Source: Lachnospiraceae bacterium
GTDB lineage: Bacteria > Bacillota > Clostridia > Lachnospirales > Lachnospiraceae
Length of the DNA stretch: 48,850 bases
Direction: 5' to 3'
Assembly (NCBI GenBank): GCA_022796475.1
Contig: JAAWIS010000019.1
Location: forward strand, 1 to 48,850
How positions within the stretch are numbered: position 1 is the first letter of the stretch; the number at the start of each line of letters is the position of its first letter. Below, in pieces: positions 3,775 to 47,240 of this stretch. The notes under the pieces were generated by a model. That model was not told the DNA's origin, ran no database searches, and was given only the letters and a program-made list of their open reading frames with translations. The translations under genes and the position numbers were made by a program.

Positions 3775-5049
3775 ATGGCAGCAGTATTATTTCTTAGTAT
3801 GGTTGTATTTTTGCTTTTGGGTCTGCCAATTGCATTTGTTCTCTGCGGGTCTTCTGTTCTTGCCCTGGCAGTGGATGGAAGGATGAGCTTAAATATTGTG
3901 ATCCAGAGAATGTTTTCCGGATCGGGAAGCTTTACCCTTCTGGCTGTCCCTTTCTTTGTGCTGGCAGGGAATTTAATGAGTGCAGGGGGAATTTCCCGGC
4001 GTCTGGTAAATCTGTGCAATCGTTTTTTGGGACATATTTCCGGCGGACTTGCCATGGCTGCAGTTGTAACCTGTGCTTTTTTTGCGGCAATTTCCGGCTC
4101 AAGTGCGGCTACAGCGGCAGCAGTGGGCGCTATTATTATCCCGGAAATGCTGAAAAACCGTTATGACCGAAATTTTGCAGCCGCAACCATTGCTTCGTCA
4201 GCAGAACTTGGGGTGATTATTCCGCCTAGCATTGGCTTGATTCAGTATGGTGTGGCAGCGGAGCAGTCCATTAGTGATTTGTTTATGGCAGGTTTTTTAC
4301 CTGGAATTTTTATCTGTATTACAATTATGGCAGCTGCCCATGTTCTTGCCAAAAAACAAGGTTTTATTCCAAATGAAAAGGCCAGCGGTGCACAAAGGGC
4401 AGTAGCCTTTAAAGAAGCGATTTTAGCCCTTTTAATGCCAGTGATAATCCTGGGCGGCATTTACAGCGGATTTTTTACTCCAACTGAAGCAGCCGTTGTT
4501 TCTGTATTTTACGGCCTGGTGGTGGGAATGTTTGTCTACAAGGAGATTAAACCAAAGGATTTACAACGGATTTTTTATGAATCGGTTCTTACCATGGCTA
4601 CGGTGCTGTTTATTATGTCAGCTTCTACGGTGTTTGGCTGGATTTTGGCAAAAGAACAGGTTCCACAGACAGTAGCCCATGTTTTTTTAAGTGTATCAGG
4701 GAGCAAGTACGTGTTCCTGATTTTAATTAATATTATGCTGCTGGTGGTAGGGATGTTTTGCGAGGCAGGAGCTGCCATGGTAATTTTAGCGCCATTGCTT
4801 GCACCGATTGCACAAACATTAGGAATTGATTTAATTCATTTTGGCATTATCATGATGACGAACCTGGCCATTGGAATGATGACGCCACCAGTAGGTGTAA
4901 ATCTGTATGTTGTATGTGACAGCGCAAAGGTGAAAATCGAGGGGATGATGCGGTATCTGATTGTGTATTTTTTAATTTTGGTGTTGGATCTGATGCTGAT
5001 TACCTTTATTCCGCCCCTTTCCCTGACGCTTCCCCATTTGCTGAAATAA
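3775..5049 (+). CDS. dctM: TRAP transporter large permease DctM
   Basis: This is the sodium- or proton-coupled transport subunit, 424 residues with about 12 hydrophobic helices, matching the usual DctM length of 425-430. Characteristic segments include LPIAFVLCG near the start, AISGSSAATAAAVG at about residue 105 and GMMTPPVGVNLYV near residue 363, all conserved in the family. The start follows GGGAGGAGG and almost abuts dctQ. Immediately downstream are three tandem copies of a structured repeat, which separate the transporter genes from the enzymes of the locus. Confidence 0.93.
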   Translation: MAAVLFLSMVVFLLLGLPIAFVLCGSSVLALAVDGRMSLNIVIQRMFSGSGSFTLLAVPFFVLAGNLMSAGGISRRLVNLCNRFLGHISGGLAMAAVVTCAFFAAISGSSAATAAAVGAIIIPEMLKNRYDRNFAAATIASSAELGVIIPPSIGLIQYGVAAEQSISDLFMAGFLPGIFICITIMAAAHVLAKKQGFIPNEKASGAQRAVAFKEAILALLMPVIILGGIYSGFFTPTEAAVVSVFYGLVVGMFVYKEIKPKDLQRIFYESVLTMATVLFIMSASTVFGWILAKEQVPQTVAHVFLSVSGSKYVFLILINIMLLVVGMFCEAGAAMVILAPLLAPIAQTLGIDLIHFGIIMMTNLAIGMMTPPVGVNLYVVCDSAKVKIEGMMRYLIVYFLILVLDLMLITFIPPLSLTLPHLLK

Positions 5050-5063
5050 TTTCCATAGAATAA

Positions 5064-5191
5064 AGAGTCCGGCTTTCTGGACTCTCGCGCCGGAGCGCGT
5101 CTGCGCCAGCAGACAGTTTCATTAGGCGCGAAGTGCGCATCCCTCTGGAGGGTTTGTTCTTTATTAGGAAGCAATTTCTTATAAAGAACAA
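5064..5191 (+). repeat. 128-bp structured repeat, unit 1 of 3
   Basis: This is the first unit of a tandem array with an exact 128-bp period. In order it can form AGAGTCC...GGACTCT, GCGC-CGGA-GCGC, TCTGC-GCCA-GCAGA, GCGC-GAAGT-GCGC, CCCTC-TG-GAGGG and a long TTGTTCTTTAT...ATAAAGAACAA hairpin. It is non-coding: short frames through it are just translations of the palindromes. Function unknown. Confidence 0.9.
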
Positions 5192-5319
5192 AGAGTCCGG
5201 CTTTCCGGACTCTTGCGCCGGAGCGCGTCTGCGTCAGCAGACAGTTTCATTAGGCGCGAAGTGCGCATCCCTCTGGAGGGTTTGTTCTTTATTAGGAAGC
5301 AATTTCTTATAAAGAACAA
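5192..5319 (+). repeat. 128-bp structured repeat, unit 2 of 3
   Basis: This unit is nearly identical to unit 1, differing at only a few bases, including changes within hairpin loops. The near-identity suggests recent tandem duplication. Confidence 0.9.
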
Positions 5320-5445
5320 AGAGTCCGGTTTTCCAGACTCTTGCGCCGGAGCGCGTCTGCGTCAGCAGACAGTTTCCTTAAGCGCGAAGTGCGCATCTTT
5401 CGGAGGTTTTTTGCTTTATAGGCGTAATTACCTATAAAGTAAAAA
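5320..5445 (+). repeat. 128-bp structured repeat, unit 3 of 3 (divergent)
   Basis: The first two thirds match units 1 and 2, but the end differs: CTTAAGCGCG replaces ATTAGGCGCG and the last hairpin becomes TTTTTGCTTTATAGG...CCTATAAAGTAAAAA. Both arms changed together, so pairing is kept. This version is closest to the inverted copy at 36809-36936. Confidence 0.85.
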
Positions 5446-5487
5446 GTTTAGTGATAAGTAAAAACTATGATACAAGGAGGATCGAAT

Positions 5488-6663
5488 GTGAAAATTACAG
5501 AAATAACCCCCATAAGCCTGCGCTATCCGTATTCGGCGTTTATTGCTGACGGGTGCAGTGCATGCTTTGCAAGAGGATCTCTTCTGGTGGAGATAAAGAC
5601 AGATAAAGGGATAACAGGGATTGGAGAGTGTGCTACCTTTGGCTGTTCCATGTCGGCCATGGCCGATGTGATAAAACACCAGTTAAAACCACTTTTAATC
5701 GGGGAAAATCCGCTTGCCATAGAATACTTGTGGAATCGAATGGTGTGGAGTAATTGGGCAAATGGGCATAGGGGTATCGTGATGGGGGCTATCAGCGGTA
5801 TCGATATTGCACTGTGGGATATTTTGGGTAAAGCTGCCGGGATGCCTGTTTACCGCCTTCTTGGAGCAAACCGGGATTCGGTAAAGGCCTATGCAAGCGC
5901 TGGATTTTATGCAGAAAATAAAGGAATAGATGGGCTGAAGGCCGAGATGGAGGGCTACATAGATAAGGGATACACGGCATTTAAGATGAAAGTGGGAAGG
6001 ACTTTAAACAAATTGGAAATGCCTCATCATTATATTCCAAAAGGCGATTTTTATTTTTCAGCCAGGGAGGATCGAAAGCGGGTGCAGGCTGTCCGGGAAA
6101 CGATAGGGCCGGATTGTGTGCTGATGCTGGATATGAATTGCACTTGGAACGCTTCTGAGGTTCTTGCTTCAGAATCCATGTTTGATGAATATAACATTTA
6201 CTGGATTGAGGAACCAGTGCGCTCAGATGATTTAGAGGGTTATTCTGCCATCGCAGCAGGGTTAAAGAGGACCCTGGTTGCCGGCTGTGAATCAGAGCAG
6301 GGGTTATCCCGATATAAGGAAATGCTGGAAAAGGGGGCTGTCGATGTGGTTCAGGCTAATCTTGGCTGGAGCGGAGGCTTTACCGAGTGCCGGAAAATTG
6401 CTGCTCTTAGCCTAGCCTATAATAAGATGTTTACCCCCCACACGTTTTTTTCTGCAGTGCTTACTGCAGCTAATATCCATTTTGCCGCATCTCTTCCGAA
6501 TGTGCCGTTTATTGAGTCTGAGGAAAATGAAAATCCGCTCCGAACGGATTTGCTGAAAACGCCGCTGGAACATGACGGAGAGATGAATTATTTTGTACCG
6601 CAGGCCCCGGGATTGGGTATTGAGCTAAATTGGGATGTGGTGGAGCGTTATCTGGTGCGCTGA
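5488..6663 (+). CDS. Mandelate racemase/muconate lactonizing enzyme family protein
   Basis: This enolase-superfamily enzyme has an N-terminal capping domain (about residues 1-125) and a TIM barrel. The barrel shows the mandelate-racemase-type KxK base motif (FKMKVG, K166/K168), metal ligands D215 (LDMN), E241 or E242 (WIEEP) and E268 (GCESEQ), and the catalytic His H318 (TPHTF). The Asp that normally pairs with this His (QPDVG in the family) is Asn here (QANLG, about N291). I chose the GTG at 5488 because AAGGAGG lies 7 bases upstream; an ATG at 5467 would place that ribosome site inside the gene. Likely a sugar-acid dehydratase or racemase; substrate unknown. Confidence 0.85.
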   Translation: MKITEITPISLRYPYSAFIADGCSACFARGSLLVEIKTDKGITGIGECATFGCSMSAMADVIKHQLKPLLIGENPLAIEYLWNRMVWSNWANGHRGIVMGAISGIDIALWDILGKAAGMPVYRLLGANRDSVKAYASAGFYAENKGIDGLKAEMEGYIDKGYTAFKMKVGRTLNKLEMPHHYIPKGDFYFSAREDRKRVQAVRETIGPDCVLMLDMNCTWNASEVLASESMFDEYNIYWIEEPVRSDDLEGYSAIAAGLKRTLVAGCESEQGLSRYKEMLEKGAVDVVQANLGWSGGFTECRKIAALSLAYNKMFTPHTFFSAVLTAANIHFAASLPNVPFIESEENENPLRTDLLKTPLEHDGEMNYFVPQAPGLGIELNWDVVERYLVR

Positions 6664-36778: not shown

Positions 36779-36812
36779 GAGCTTCATACTGATAGGTATG
36801 AGGCTCTTCTTT
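36779..36812 (+). terminator. Rho-independent terminator after rpmA
   Basis: GAGCTTCATAC and GTATGAGGCTC pair with one G-T wobble around a 6-base loop and are followed by TTCTTT. It directly abuts the 128-bp repeat copy that starts at about 36809. Confidence 0.75.
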
Positions 36813-36936
36813 GCTTTATAGGAAATTGCTTTCCTAATAAAGCAAAAACCCTCCGGGGGATGCGCACTTCGCGCTTAAGGAAACTGTCTGCTGGCGCAGA
36901 CGCGCTCCGGCGCGAGAGTCCGGCTTGCCGGACTCT
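36809..36936 (-). repeat. Inverted fourth copy of the 128-bp structured repeat
   Basis: Read on the minus strand, this copy has the same series of hairpins as the three units at 5.06-5.45 kb and is closest to unit 3 (shared CTTAAGCGCGAAGTGCGCATC). Its first hairpin, AGAGTCCGGC-AA-GCCGGACTCT, is longer than in the other copies, and its last stem is TTTGCTTTAT...ATAAAGCAAA. Arms vary together across copies. It lies between rpmA and obgE. Confidence 0.88.
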
Positions 36937-37054
36937 TTGGTTCTATCAGAGAAAGTTTGCGGTTTCTCTCCGCCGGGACAGCAAGATGGGGTGTAAGAAG
37001 GAGAGCTTTGTCCATGGAGGATATCCAAGCATAAAAAGAAAGGTATAAGATCAT

Positions 37055-38347
37055 ATGTTTTGTGACAGTGCGAAAGTATTTATCAAATCCGGAAAAGGCG
37101 GAGATGGTCATGTATCATTTCGGCGTGAGCTTTATGTACCTGCTGGAGGGCCTGACGGCGGCGATGGCGGAAGGGGAGGAGATATTATCTTTGAAGTAGA
37201 AGATGGATTAAATACCCTGACAGATTTTCGCCATGTAAGGAAATATGTGGCTTCCAGCGGACAAGAGGGAGGAAAGCGCCGCTGCCATGGAGCAAGCGGG
37301 GAAGATTTAGTGATTAAAGTACCTGAGGGAACGGTAATTAAAGATTTTCAGTCCGGAAAGGTAATTGCTGATATGTCCGGAAAAAACCGCCGTGAAGTCA
37401 TTTTAAAAGGCGGAAAAGGCGGACTGGGAAATATGCATTTCGCAACCTCAACCATGCAGGCGCCTAAATATGCGCAGCCAGGCCAGCCGGCTCAGGAACT
37501 GTGGGTGCAGTTGGAACTTAAGGTAATTGCCGATGTAGGTTTGGTAGGCTTTCCAAATGTAGGAAAATCAACCCTTTTATCCAGAGTTAGCAATGCCCGC
37601 CCTAAAATAGCAAATTATCATTTTACCACGCTGAATCCCCATCTTGGCGTTGTTGATTTAGGAAGCGGTGCAGGCTATGTTATGGCAGATATTCCCGGAT
37701 TAATAGAAGGAGCTTCTGAGGGAGTTGGATTAGGACATGCATTTCTTAGGCATATTGAGCGCACCAGAGTATTGGTTCATGTTGTAGATGCTGCATCTAC
37801 AGAAGGCCGAAATCCGATTGAAGATATTCATGCCATCAATAAAGAACTGGAAAGCTATAATCCGGAACTTGCAAAAAAACCTCAGGTAATTGCTGCAAAT
37901 AAAATCGATGCAATCTATGAGGATGGAGAGGATCAAAATCCAGTGGCAATCCTAAAGGAGGAATTCGAGCCGAAAGGCATCCGGGTTTTCCCTATTTCTG
38001 CTGTAAGCGGAAAAGGAGTACAGGAATTGCTGTATTATGTGAATGAATTGCTGAAAACAGCAGAACAGGAACCGATTATTTTTGAGAGAGAGTTTGATCT
38101 TTCTTCTGTTAATATTCAGCCGAATTTACCATATACAGTGGAAAAGGATTCAGATGGTATTTATATTGTAGAAGGACCACGGATTGAAAAAATGCTGGGA
38201 TATACAAACCTGGAATCAGAAAAAGGGTTTGACTTTTTTCAGAAATTCCTGAAAGATAATGGGATTTTAGACGATCTGGAAAAAGCGGGAATCCAGGAAG
38301 GCGATACAGTCCGCATGTATGGTTTGGTATTTGATTACTATAAATAA
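37055..38347 (+). CDS. obgE: GTPase ObgE (CgtA)
   Basis: Obg is an essential ribosome-associated GTPase that acts in 50S maturation and stress control. The glycine-rich Obg fold (about residues 1-158, GGDGHVSFRRELYVPAGGPDGGDGGRGGDI) is followed by the G domain with GFPNVGKSTLLSR (G1), DIPGLIEGASEG (G3) and NKID (G4). The OCT domain forms the last 70 residues. Length 430 is normal. The ribosome site (AAAGAAAGG) is modest. yhbY, nadD and yqeK follow. Confidence 0.97.
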   Translation: MFCDSAKVFIKSGKGGDGHVSFRRELYVPAGGPDGGDGGRGGDIIFEVEDGLNTLTDFRHVRKYVASSGQEGGKRRCHGASGEDLVIKVPEGTVIKDFQSGKVIADMSGKNRREVILKGGKGGLGNMHFATSTMQAPKYAQPGQPAQELWVQLELKVIADVGLVGFPNVGKSTLLSRVSNARPKIANYHFTTLNPHLGVVDLGSGAGYVMADIPGLIEGASEGVGLGHAFLRHIERTRVLVHVVDAASTEGRNPIEDIHAINKELESYNPELAKKPQVIAANKIDAIYEDGEDQNPVAILKEEFEPKGIRVFPISAVSGKGVQELLYYVNELLKTAEQEPIIFEREFDLSSVNIQPNLPYTVEKDSDGIYIVEGPRIEKMLGYTNLESEKGFDFFQKFLKDNGILDDLEKAGIQEGDTVRMYGLVFDYYK

Positions 38348-44918: not shown

Positions 44919-45002
44919 GAATCAATAGATTTCTTTTTCTTTTAATAATTAATTATTATTTTTTCTTTCAATAATTAATTATTAACAATTAACTATTGAT
45001 TC
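44919..45002. repeat. AT-rich inverted repeat with duplicated palindromes
   Basis: GAATCAATAG (44919-44928) and CTATTGATTC (44993-45002) enclose two identical 14-bp palindromes, AATAATTAATTATT, at 44944-44957 and 44970-44983. It lies just past the LCP stop codon. Function unknown. Confidence 0.6.
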
Positions 45003-47006: not shown

Positions 47007-47044
47007 GGGAGAAATCTGTGCACAATTTAGGAGGGGCAGATTAA

Positions 47045-47240
47045 GAAAGAAGCGCCATGCACCGGTTTTTGCAGCGTGAACAGTCTTCTGTATTTCAAAA
47101 GACTTTAAAAACCGGTTAACGAGGTGGAGAGAGAATCGAAATTATTCGGCGGATGCTCTCCCGTGCTGCTTTGGGCATGTGATCCTTGCTGAAAATATGC
47201 AGGCAACTGCAAAACAAAAGGCAGGGAATCAAAGCAAGAA
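47045..47240 (+). ncRNA. glmS ribozyme/riboswitch
   Basis: The glmS leader contains AGCGCC at 47051-47056, ACCGG/CCGGT pairing and the core AACGAGGTGGAGAG... ATCGAAATTATTCGGCGGATG... CTCCCG (47118-47163), which are the conserved parts of the glucosamine-6-phosphate-activated self-cleaving ribozyme. Cleavage is expected between A47051 and G47052. When GlcN6P is high, the mRNA is cut and degraded, so glmS is turned down. The 3' limit (P3/P4 region) is approximate. Confidence 0.93.

Follow-up and report, generated by a model that had tools for sequence, protein, structure and literature searches.

Class C group II introns insert behind intrinsic terminators, in the same polarity as the repeat described here (accessible text of PMC4424553); they are ribozymes with a reverse transcriptase, whereas the repeat is 125 bp of DNA without either. 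In the "mobile attenuators" of Naville and Gautheret, as presented in the accessible part of PMC2965389, a mobile element likewise brings a terminator upstream of unrelated genes, but insertion is possible at nearly random sites, whereas here the terminator itself appears to be the target. REP, BIME and REPIN sequences resemble the repeat as high-copy intergenic hairpins, and their movement is assumed to depend on Y1 enzymes acting in trans (accessible text of PMC3733652). Unlike them, however, the repeat is longer, has several hairpins and no GT[AG]G foot, and is fixed behind terminators; no associated RAYT was found. With IS200-type elements and their non-autonomous PATE derivatives the repeat shares, in the sets tested, a target, the T-tract behind a terminator hairpin, and the polarity relative to it; it also resembles them in lacking terminal inverted repeats, in having hairpins near both ends and in carrying A-rich sequence on the 5' side of a left hairpin. 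The left hairpin of IS608 is preceded by a guide that base-pairs with a target in the left flank (PMC5934647 and PMC6006769, in their accessible parts). Unlike the IS200 copies examined, which end in ..GGTGG then TGATT or alike, the repeat has different end hairpins and a right terminus reading TTTGTTC or TTTTTA; it has no transposase gene, its carriers may be without any Y1 gene, and no right-end guide was seen in it.

Results

The window, that is, the whole stretch of 48,850 nucleotides analysed (contig JAAWIS010000019.1 of the Lachnospiraceae assembly GCA_022796475.1), holds an array of the repeat between dctM, a TRAP transporter gene (3775..5049, plus strand, PF06808), and a gene for an enolase-superfamily enzyme (MR_MLE; 5467..6663, plus strand, PF13378 and PF02746). 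The three tandem units with an exact 128-bp spacing that an earlier note had described are there, starting at 5057, 5185 and 5313 (array 5057-5440). A further copy noted at 36.8 kb is real as well and lies on the opposite strand to the array. We define the R strand as that reading TTTATAGG...GGACTCTTTGTTC, which is minus for the array and plus for the 36.8-kb copy; the strand used in the earlier note is the reverse of this polarity. All three units lie in R polarity on the minus strand: unit 3 (5313..5440; covariance-model match 5314-5444) is outermost on the left (R) side, next comes unit 2 (5185..5312; match 5186-5319), and the right end of unit 2 is the left flank of unit 1 (5057..5184; match 5058-5191). 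Terminator-like hairpins on the minus strand form the right ends of unit 3 (5319..5342, tail TGTTCTTTAT), unit 2 (5191..5214, tail TGTTCTTTAT) and unit 1 (5063..5086). Pairwise identity is 124/128 between units 1 and 2, 92/128 between 1 and 3, and 96/128 between 2 and 3, and the A-rich segment reads GAACAAA in units 1 and 2 and GCAAAAA in unit 3. Local duplication may have produced the tandem arrangement, as units 1 and 2 have private bases in common. Unit 3, and with it the array, is preceded by a weak hairpin alone (-0.9 kcal/mol). No empty site was found for the array, whose genes had no match (E<=1e-20) in ten congeneric genomes, repeat copies aside. Elsewhere the window contains a 26-bp AT-rich repeat in two near-perfect copies (44934-44984) and a glmS ribozyme-riboswitch (47040-47237; RF00234, 72 bits).

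The single copy (36809..36942, R polarity on the plus strand) occupies the gap between rpmA, encoding ribosomal protein L27 (36478..36768, plus, PF01016), and the obgE GTPase gene (37055..38347, plus, PF01018). On the plus strand, the host rpmA terminator, a hairpin with TTCTTT (36779..36812), is followed by the palindrome H1 at the left end of the copy (36815..36841), the A-rich segment GCAAAAA, a putative T-tract guide (36842..36848), and the short hairpin CCCTCCGGGGG, the proposed left-end hairpin (36849..36859). Then come a covarying core hairpin, GTCTGC..GCAGAC (36886..36901), a nearly invariant one, GCGCTCCGGCGC (36902..36913), and the right-end hairpin GAGTCCGG..CCGGACTC with its tail TTTGGTTC (36916..36943), which covaries between subfamilies. 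On the opposite strand the CCCTCCGGGGG hairpin is terminator-like, the A-rich segment then serving as T-tract.

A unit is about 125 bp long, contains no gene, and folds at -58.8 kcal/mol (z = -5.8), a value as low as which none of 200 shuffles reached. The earlier count of about six hairpins holds approximately: RNAalifold supports three, located in the 3' half of the R strand, and H1 and CCCTCCGGGG are seen in single folds. Hairpins thus lie near both ends, H1 and CCCTCCGGGG on the left and the covarying GAGTCC..GGACTC on the right; H1 varies in sequence among copies with its pairing kept. The H1 search was passed by 98 of 128 copies, from which 7 tandem ones were set aside, leaving 91. The last stem does change in both arms, as the note had observed: 22 different five-base arm pairs occur among the 91 single copies, which were selected for pairing at that stem, and TTTAT/ATAAA accounts for 54 of them. 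Covariation extends to the rest of the model, 15 of whose 18 pairs change on both sides. In the 74 matches from relatives (64 distinct), 97.2% of cells are paired versus 80.0% after shuffling, and sliding the partners destroys pairing; this alignment (A3) was fitted to the model structure, which favours the covariation result, and a MAFFT alignment (A1) shows two-sided changes in 8 of the 18 pairs. Comparison of the ends by eye in all listed copies revealed no terminal inverted repeats, and no shared flanks that would point to target duplication were seen by eye.

The repeat is abundant and widespread. BLAST found 48 matches in the 3.77-Mb source genome, and a covariance model (R1) made from 34 copies found 111 there at E<=0.01; of these, 97 reached E<=1e-4 and 70 scored more than 73 bits. 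Copies are present far beyond the source strain: 60 of 150 Lachnospiraceae genomes (drawn evenly from the family at a completeness of at least 90%, with at most 22 candidates scored per genome) had a covariance-model match at E<=1e-4, the source genome included, and the matches in these carriers were inspected in part. A 21-base core pattern had at least 114 matches in named genomes; the 80 listed are mostly labelled Lachnospiraceae or bear the names of genera of that family, some being named to a higher rank alone. Among the matches listed, three unrelated organisms (Nonomuraea, Azovibrio and Aeromicrobium) also carry the pattern, which by its surroundings looks like chance, as does an IMG/VR match. 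In a class-wide sample, 2 of 147 genomes matched, namely the source genome and another of Lachnospiraceae. Plasmid records held no match to the repeat, and among phage records eight virome scaffolds matched at 73-81% identity. The copies on four of these scaffolds, deposited as bacteriophage (MT835478, MT835504, MT835487 and MT835472, in records marked UNVERIFIED and unannotated), all end in TTTGTTC. Genome-specific subfamilies exist, and the copies range by degrees from near-consensus sequences to decayed fragments. The earlier note knew of no named family for the repeat, and indeed no Rfam match above the gathering cut-off covers it; lax E-values returned microRNA matches alone, far under their cut-offs, and we found no description of it in the open-licence PMC literature. 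Some variants deserve mention. In the congeneric genome G006, two copies (L014, 1478-1639; L027, 1478-1641) are longer by an insert of about 26 bases that separates left hairpin and core, and three loci (L137, L035 and L059) have a third left-end type, TTTATAGGATTAGGGTGTCAAAAGGGTGC..., fused in L137 to the usual right end. Two other structured repeats of the source genome, B (TTACTGTGAAAGTCCTGCC...) and C (TTACTGTGAAAGCTCAGCG...), lie behind terminators in several loci, joined to halves of the present repeat, as judged by eye and without a control (L050, L068, L039, L161, L133, L135, L131 and L134; no acceptable Rfam match).

What the copies have in common is their position. We scored a terminator where a hairpin of at least 5 pairs and -8 kcal/mol or lower ended within 14 bases of the copy start and at least 4 T followed in the next 7 bases. 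This arrangement directly precedes the R-strand start in 47 of 60 single copies of the source genome and in 51 of 57 copies from relatives, the other 13 and 6 having no terminator by the rule. Controls gave 70/1500 at random sites, 34/600 (source genome) and 31/600 (relatives) at random non-ORF sites, 4/57 and 2/56 at 200 nt upstream, 4/59 and 3/56 at 200 nt downstream, and 0/60 and 1/57 on the converging strand at the other end. The source-genome set comprises 67 copies, made up of 63 of 79 rows plus 4 overlapping units from the covariance-model list, with 16 partial, weak or contig-cut rows left out; the 60 exclude 7 units flagged as tandem, among them the three of the window, and include some neighbours of partial units. 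The relatives' set takes 57 of 74 rows, leaving out 8 second listings, 1 at a contig start and 8 partial or weak ones. In the source genome, the nearest upstream ORF is co-directional in 43 of the 55 cases with such an ORF.

Conserved loci with and without the repeat bear on its mobility. The rpmA terminator hairpin and its T-rich tail are kept in all ten congeneric genomes, and the repeat was seen there in none of them. The source-genome copy begins after TTCTTT(GC), and the empty site of G006 and G007 reads CTTTTGC, so the whole proposed target can pre-exist insertion. On the right side the empty sites of relatives gave no alignment, and the right border of the repeat was set by comparing copies, without an exact empty site. 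At pheS, which has one match per genome in 11 genomes, the source genome has two units, one full and one truncated, in the interval from the T-box terminator to the gene, and G007 carries one unit; the leaders of G004, G010, G002 and G003 have none. In five other genomes a short AGGAAA-like piece, which may be a remnant of the repeat, follows the T-box terminator.

In the source genome, the A-rich segment that links H1 to the short hairpin usually reads GCAAAAA, and the flank is mostly TTTTTGC or TTTTTAC. We measured complementarity between flank and segment at seven positions beyond the five basal H1 pairs; since the five inner pairs had served to choose the register, the test is fair only at positions outside them. 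It averages 6.14 of 7 versus 5.12 shuffled in relatives (49 copies) and 5.00 of 7 versus 4.59 in the source genome (42 copies), and none of 2000 shuffles reached the observed value in either set. The two bases next to H1 are fully complementary in 56 of the 91 single copies and not in 35. Variant segments with a matching flank include GAACAAA/TTTGTTC (window units 1 and 2), GCCACAA/TTGTGGC (L063), TCAAAAA/TTTTTGA (L160) and ACAAAAA/TTTTTGT (L141), and variants without one occur in L057, L065 and L151. In window units 1 and 2, GAACAAA is the complement of TTTGTTC, with which the adjacent unit ends on its right side. As read from the sequences, this pairing is as compatible with a selected stem that includes the flank as with a DNA guide.

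The same rule, with a window reaching 7 bases further and the left boundary set by alignment, was applied to IS200-type elements of Lachnospiraceae, chosen as multi-copy (loci L340-L353, L370-L378, and L069 on contig C62 of the source genome). Here 21 of 22 copies lie directly behind a terminator hairpin in the same polarity as the repeat: 8/8 in G149, 3/3 in G077, 2/2 each in G128, G015 and G099, 3/4 in G189, with one of these scored at a partial copy next to it, and 1/1 in the source genome, where the boundary was placed by analogy. The strand of the host transcript is that of tnpA and corresponds to R. IS605-type elements, likewise chosen as multi-copy, gave 0/7 (G036 and G035; L360-L362, L366-L369). 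Several single IS200 copies seem to be placed in the same way and others do not; their boundary was not fixed and none was counted. We found no account of terminator targeting by IS200 in the accessible open-licence PMC literature.

PF01797 has three matches in the source genome, of which two lie at contig ends and the third contains stops; one of them is an IS200 copy directly behind the terminator of the upstream gene. Across the family sample, a PF01797 match is present in 41 of the 60 carriers as against 50 of the 90 non-carriers (p = 0.13), a distribution in which Y1 genes do not follow the repeat, and 19 of the 60 carriers have no Y1 gene at E<=1e-5, including G113, G166, G180 and G188 with at least 11 repeat matches each. 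Searches for an autonomous parent or mobiliser of the repeat found none. The three Y1 loci of the source genome gave no meaningful match to repeat-like ends, 24 Y1 loci searched for the repeat gave two matches alone (E 0.096 and 0.11), and the surroundings of eight right-half copies of the source genome, covered for up to 4 kb in either direction by an ORF listing with no family search, contained no parent with a gene between left and right half.

By a crude rule that misplaces some hairpins, 50 of 67 copies of the source genome and 32 of 57 from relatives have a right-end hairpin with 4 or more T among the 8 bases after it. Judging from these terminator-like sequences, an effect on transcripts is possible. 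An antiterminator pairing of the core with the right-end hairpin was considered by eye and not adopted. Eight copies, in 7 of the 40 loci scanned (L011, L031, L107, L112, L124, L181 and, with two copies, L138), have a T-box leader (RF00230) directly upstream, and so has the pheS copy of the source genome; by eye, the ORFs downstream include leuS (L011, L107) and pheS (L031). Because each genome has one pheS match, transcription has to be able to pass the right-end hairpin there, always or under some conditions, unless a promoter that escaped notice follows it. The right-end terminators in T-box leaders showed no clear trend towards weakness; their T-tracts vary, and the rule picks the wrong hairpin in several rows.

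Discussion

The main finding of this study is that the repeat is, very probably, a mobile element aimed at terminators. The earlier suggestion that the array could regulate the adjoining transporter and enzyme genes was not supported in that form: copies adjoin many different genes, and what they share is a site behind a terminator. Since the shared trait is insertion behind a terminator and the neighbouring genes are diverse, we regard mobility as its primary nature. How it moves is less certain. IS200/IS605-like movement seems to us slightly favoured, and with moderate confidence we adopt the composite reading, in which the repeat is an element of about 125 bp, non-autonomous and IS200/IS605-like, that targets terminators, perhaps through its A-rich segment. 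Under that reading, the element, with H1, the A-rich segment and the short hairpin on the left and a terminator-like hairpin with a T-rich tail on the right, would be moved as single-stranded DNA by a Y1 (IS200/IS605-type) transposase acting in trans, and would insert with a fixed orientation immediately after a host terminator's T-tract. The A-rich segment would act as a DNA guide choosing the T-tract, like the left guide of IS608. Because the element brings its own terminator, the upstream gene should still be terminated after an insertion, which would also create a new target behind the element, making tandem copies possible. In favour of this reading are the target and polarity shared with IS200-type elements and the complementarity of flank and A-rich segment. 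Against it stand the missing autonomous parent, the lack of any tie between Y1 genes and the repeat, ends unlike those of the IS200 copies found, the failure to see a right-end guide, the 35 of 91 copies without full complementarity next to H1, and the copies that start at no terminator by the rule or, in the array of the window, at a weak hairpin.

The position of the copies also weighs on the other explanations. The repeat could be a selected RNA or DNA device, a terminator, attenuator or transcript stabiliser whose mobility is incidental, as might be argued from its strong covariation, from the terminator-like hairpins kept under our crude rule in 50/67 and 32/57 copies, and from the nine copies directly behind T-box leaders. 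Yet presence differs among genomes at a given conserved terminator, the linked genes are many and unrelated, the copies grade from near-consensus to decayed, and hairpins of mobile elements covary too, so that we consider this account unlikely. Somewhat more improbable, and already disfavoured, is a REP-like element moved by a RAYT (TnpA_REP), with the terminator position a by-product of gene spacing. Many short intergenic hairpin copies with genome-specific subfamilies would suit it, and Y1 genes with open frames of 253-279 aa are present in Lachnospiraceae, but the 34-copy consensus has no GT[AG]G foot, no repeat copy lies at seven long Y1 loci (L380-L386, a subset of such genes), and copies start exactly at the T-tract rather than being merely intergenic.

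Two further accounts strike us as highly improbable. A MITE moved by a DDE transposase would be short, dispersed and non-coding, as the repeat is, and might have a palindrome at one end, but the ends are not mutual inverted repeats, and the flanks of one copy, inspected by eye, contain no duplicated target. A link to a group IIC intron or another retroelement, of which the repeat would be a remnant or a passenger, could be argued from the target and polarity that it shares with class C introns (PMC4424553, accessible text). This account too is already disfavoured: the source genome has no reverse transcriptase domain (RVT_1), the repeat is far too short for a group II ribozyme, and no group II intron Rfam match was found in the scanned loci.

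Returning to the IS200/IS605-like reading, a bolder extension of it can be put forward, tentatively and with considerable doubt. The repeat might be a DNA-guided terminator parasite in which a changeable guide picks the T-tract, an altered guide aims at the element's own right end and so builds arrays, and landings in T-box leaders convert single into double attenuators ahead of essential tRNA synthetase genes. If this were true, landing behind a terminator and bringing a terminator would be a general strategy of harmless insertion, IS200-type elements included.

Where mobile elements can land without harm is a central question, for which class C group II introns are, in the accessible literature, the described case behind terminators; a family-wide repeat and IS200-type transposons are now added. 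Our analysis gives a testable rule of guide and target, and a name for many intergenic repeats of gut Lachnospiraceae that are absent from Rfam. It also calls for caution in these genomes, where terminators and T-box leaders can precede a second, mobile terminator.
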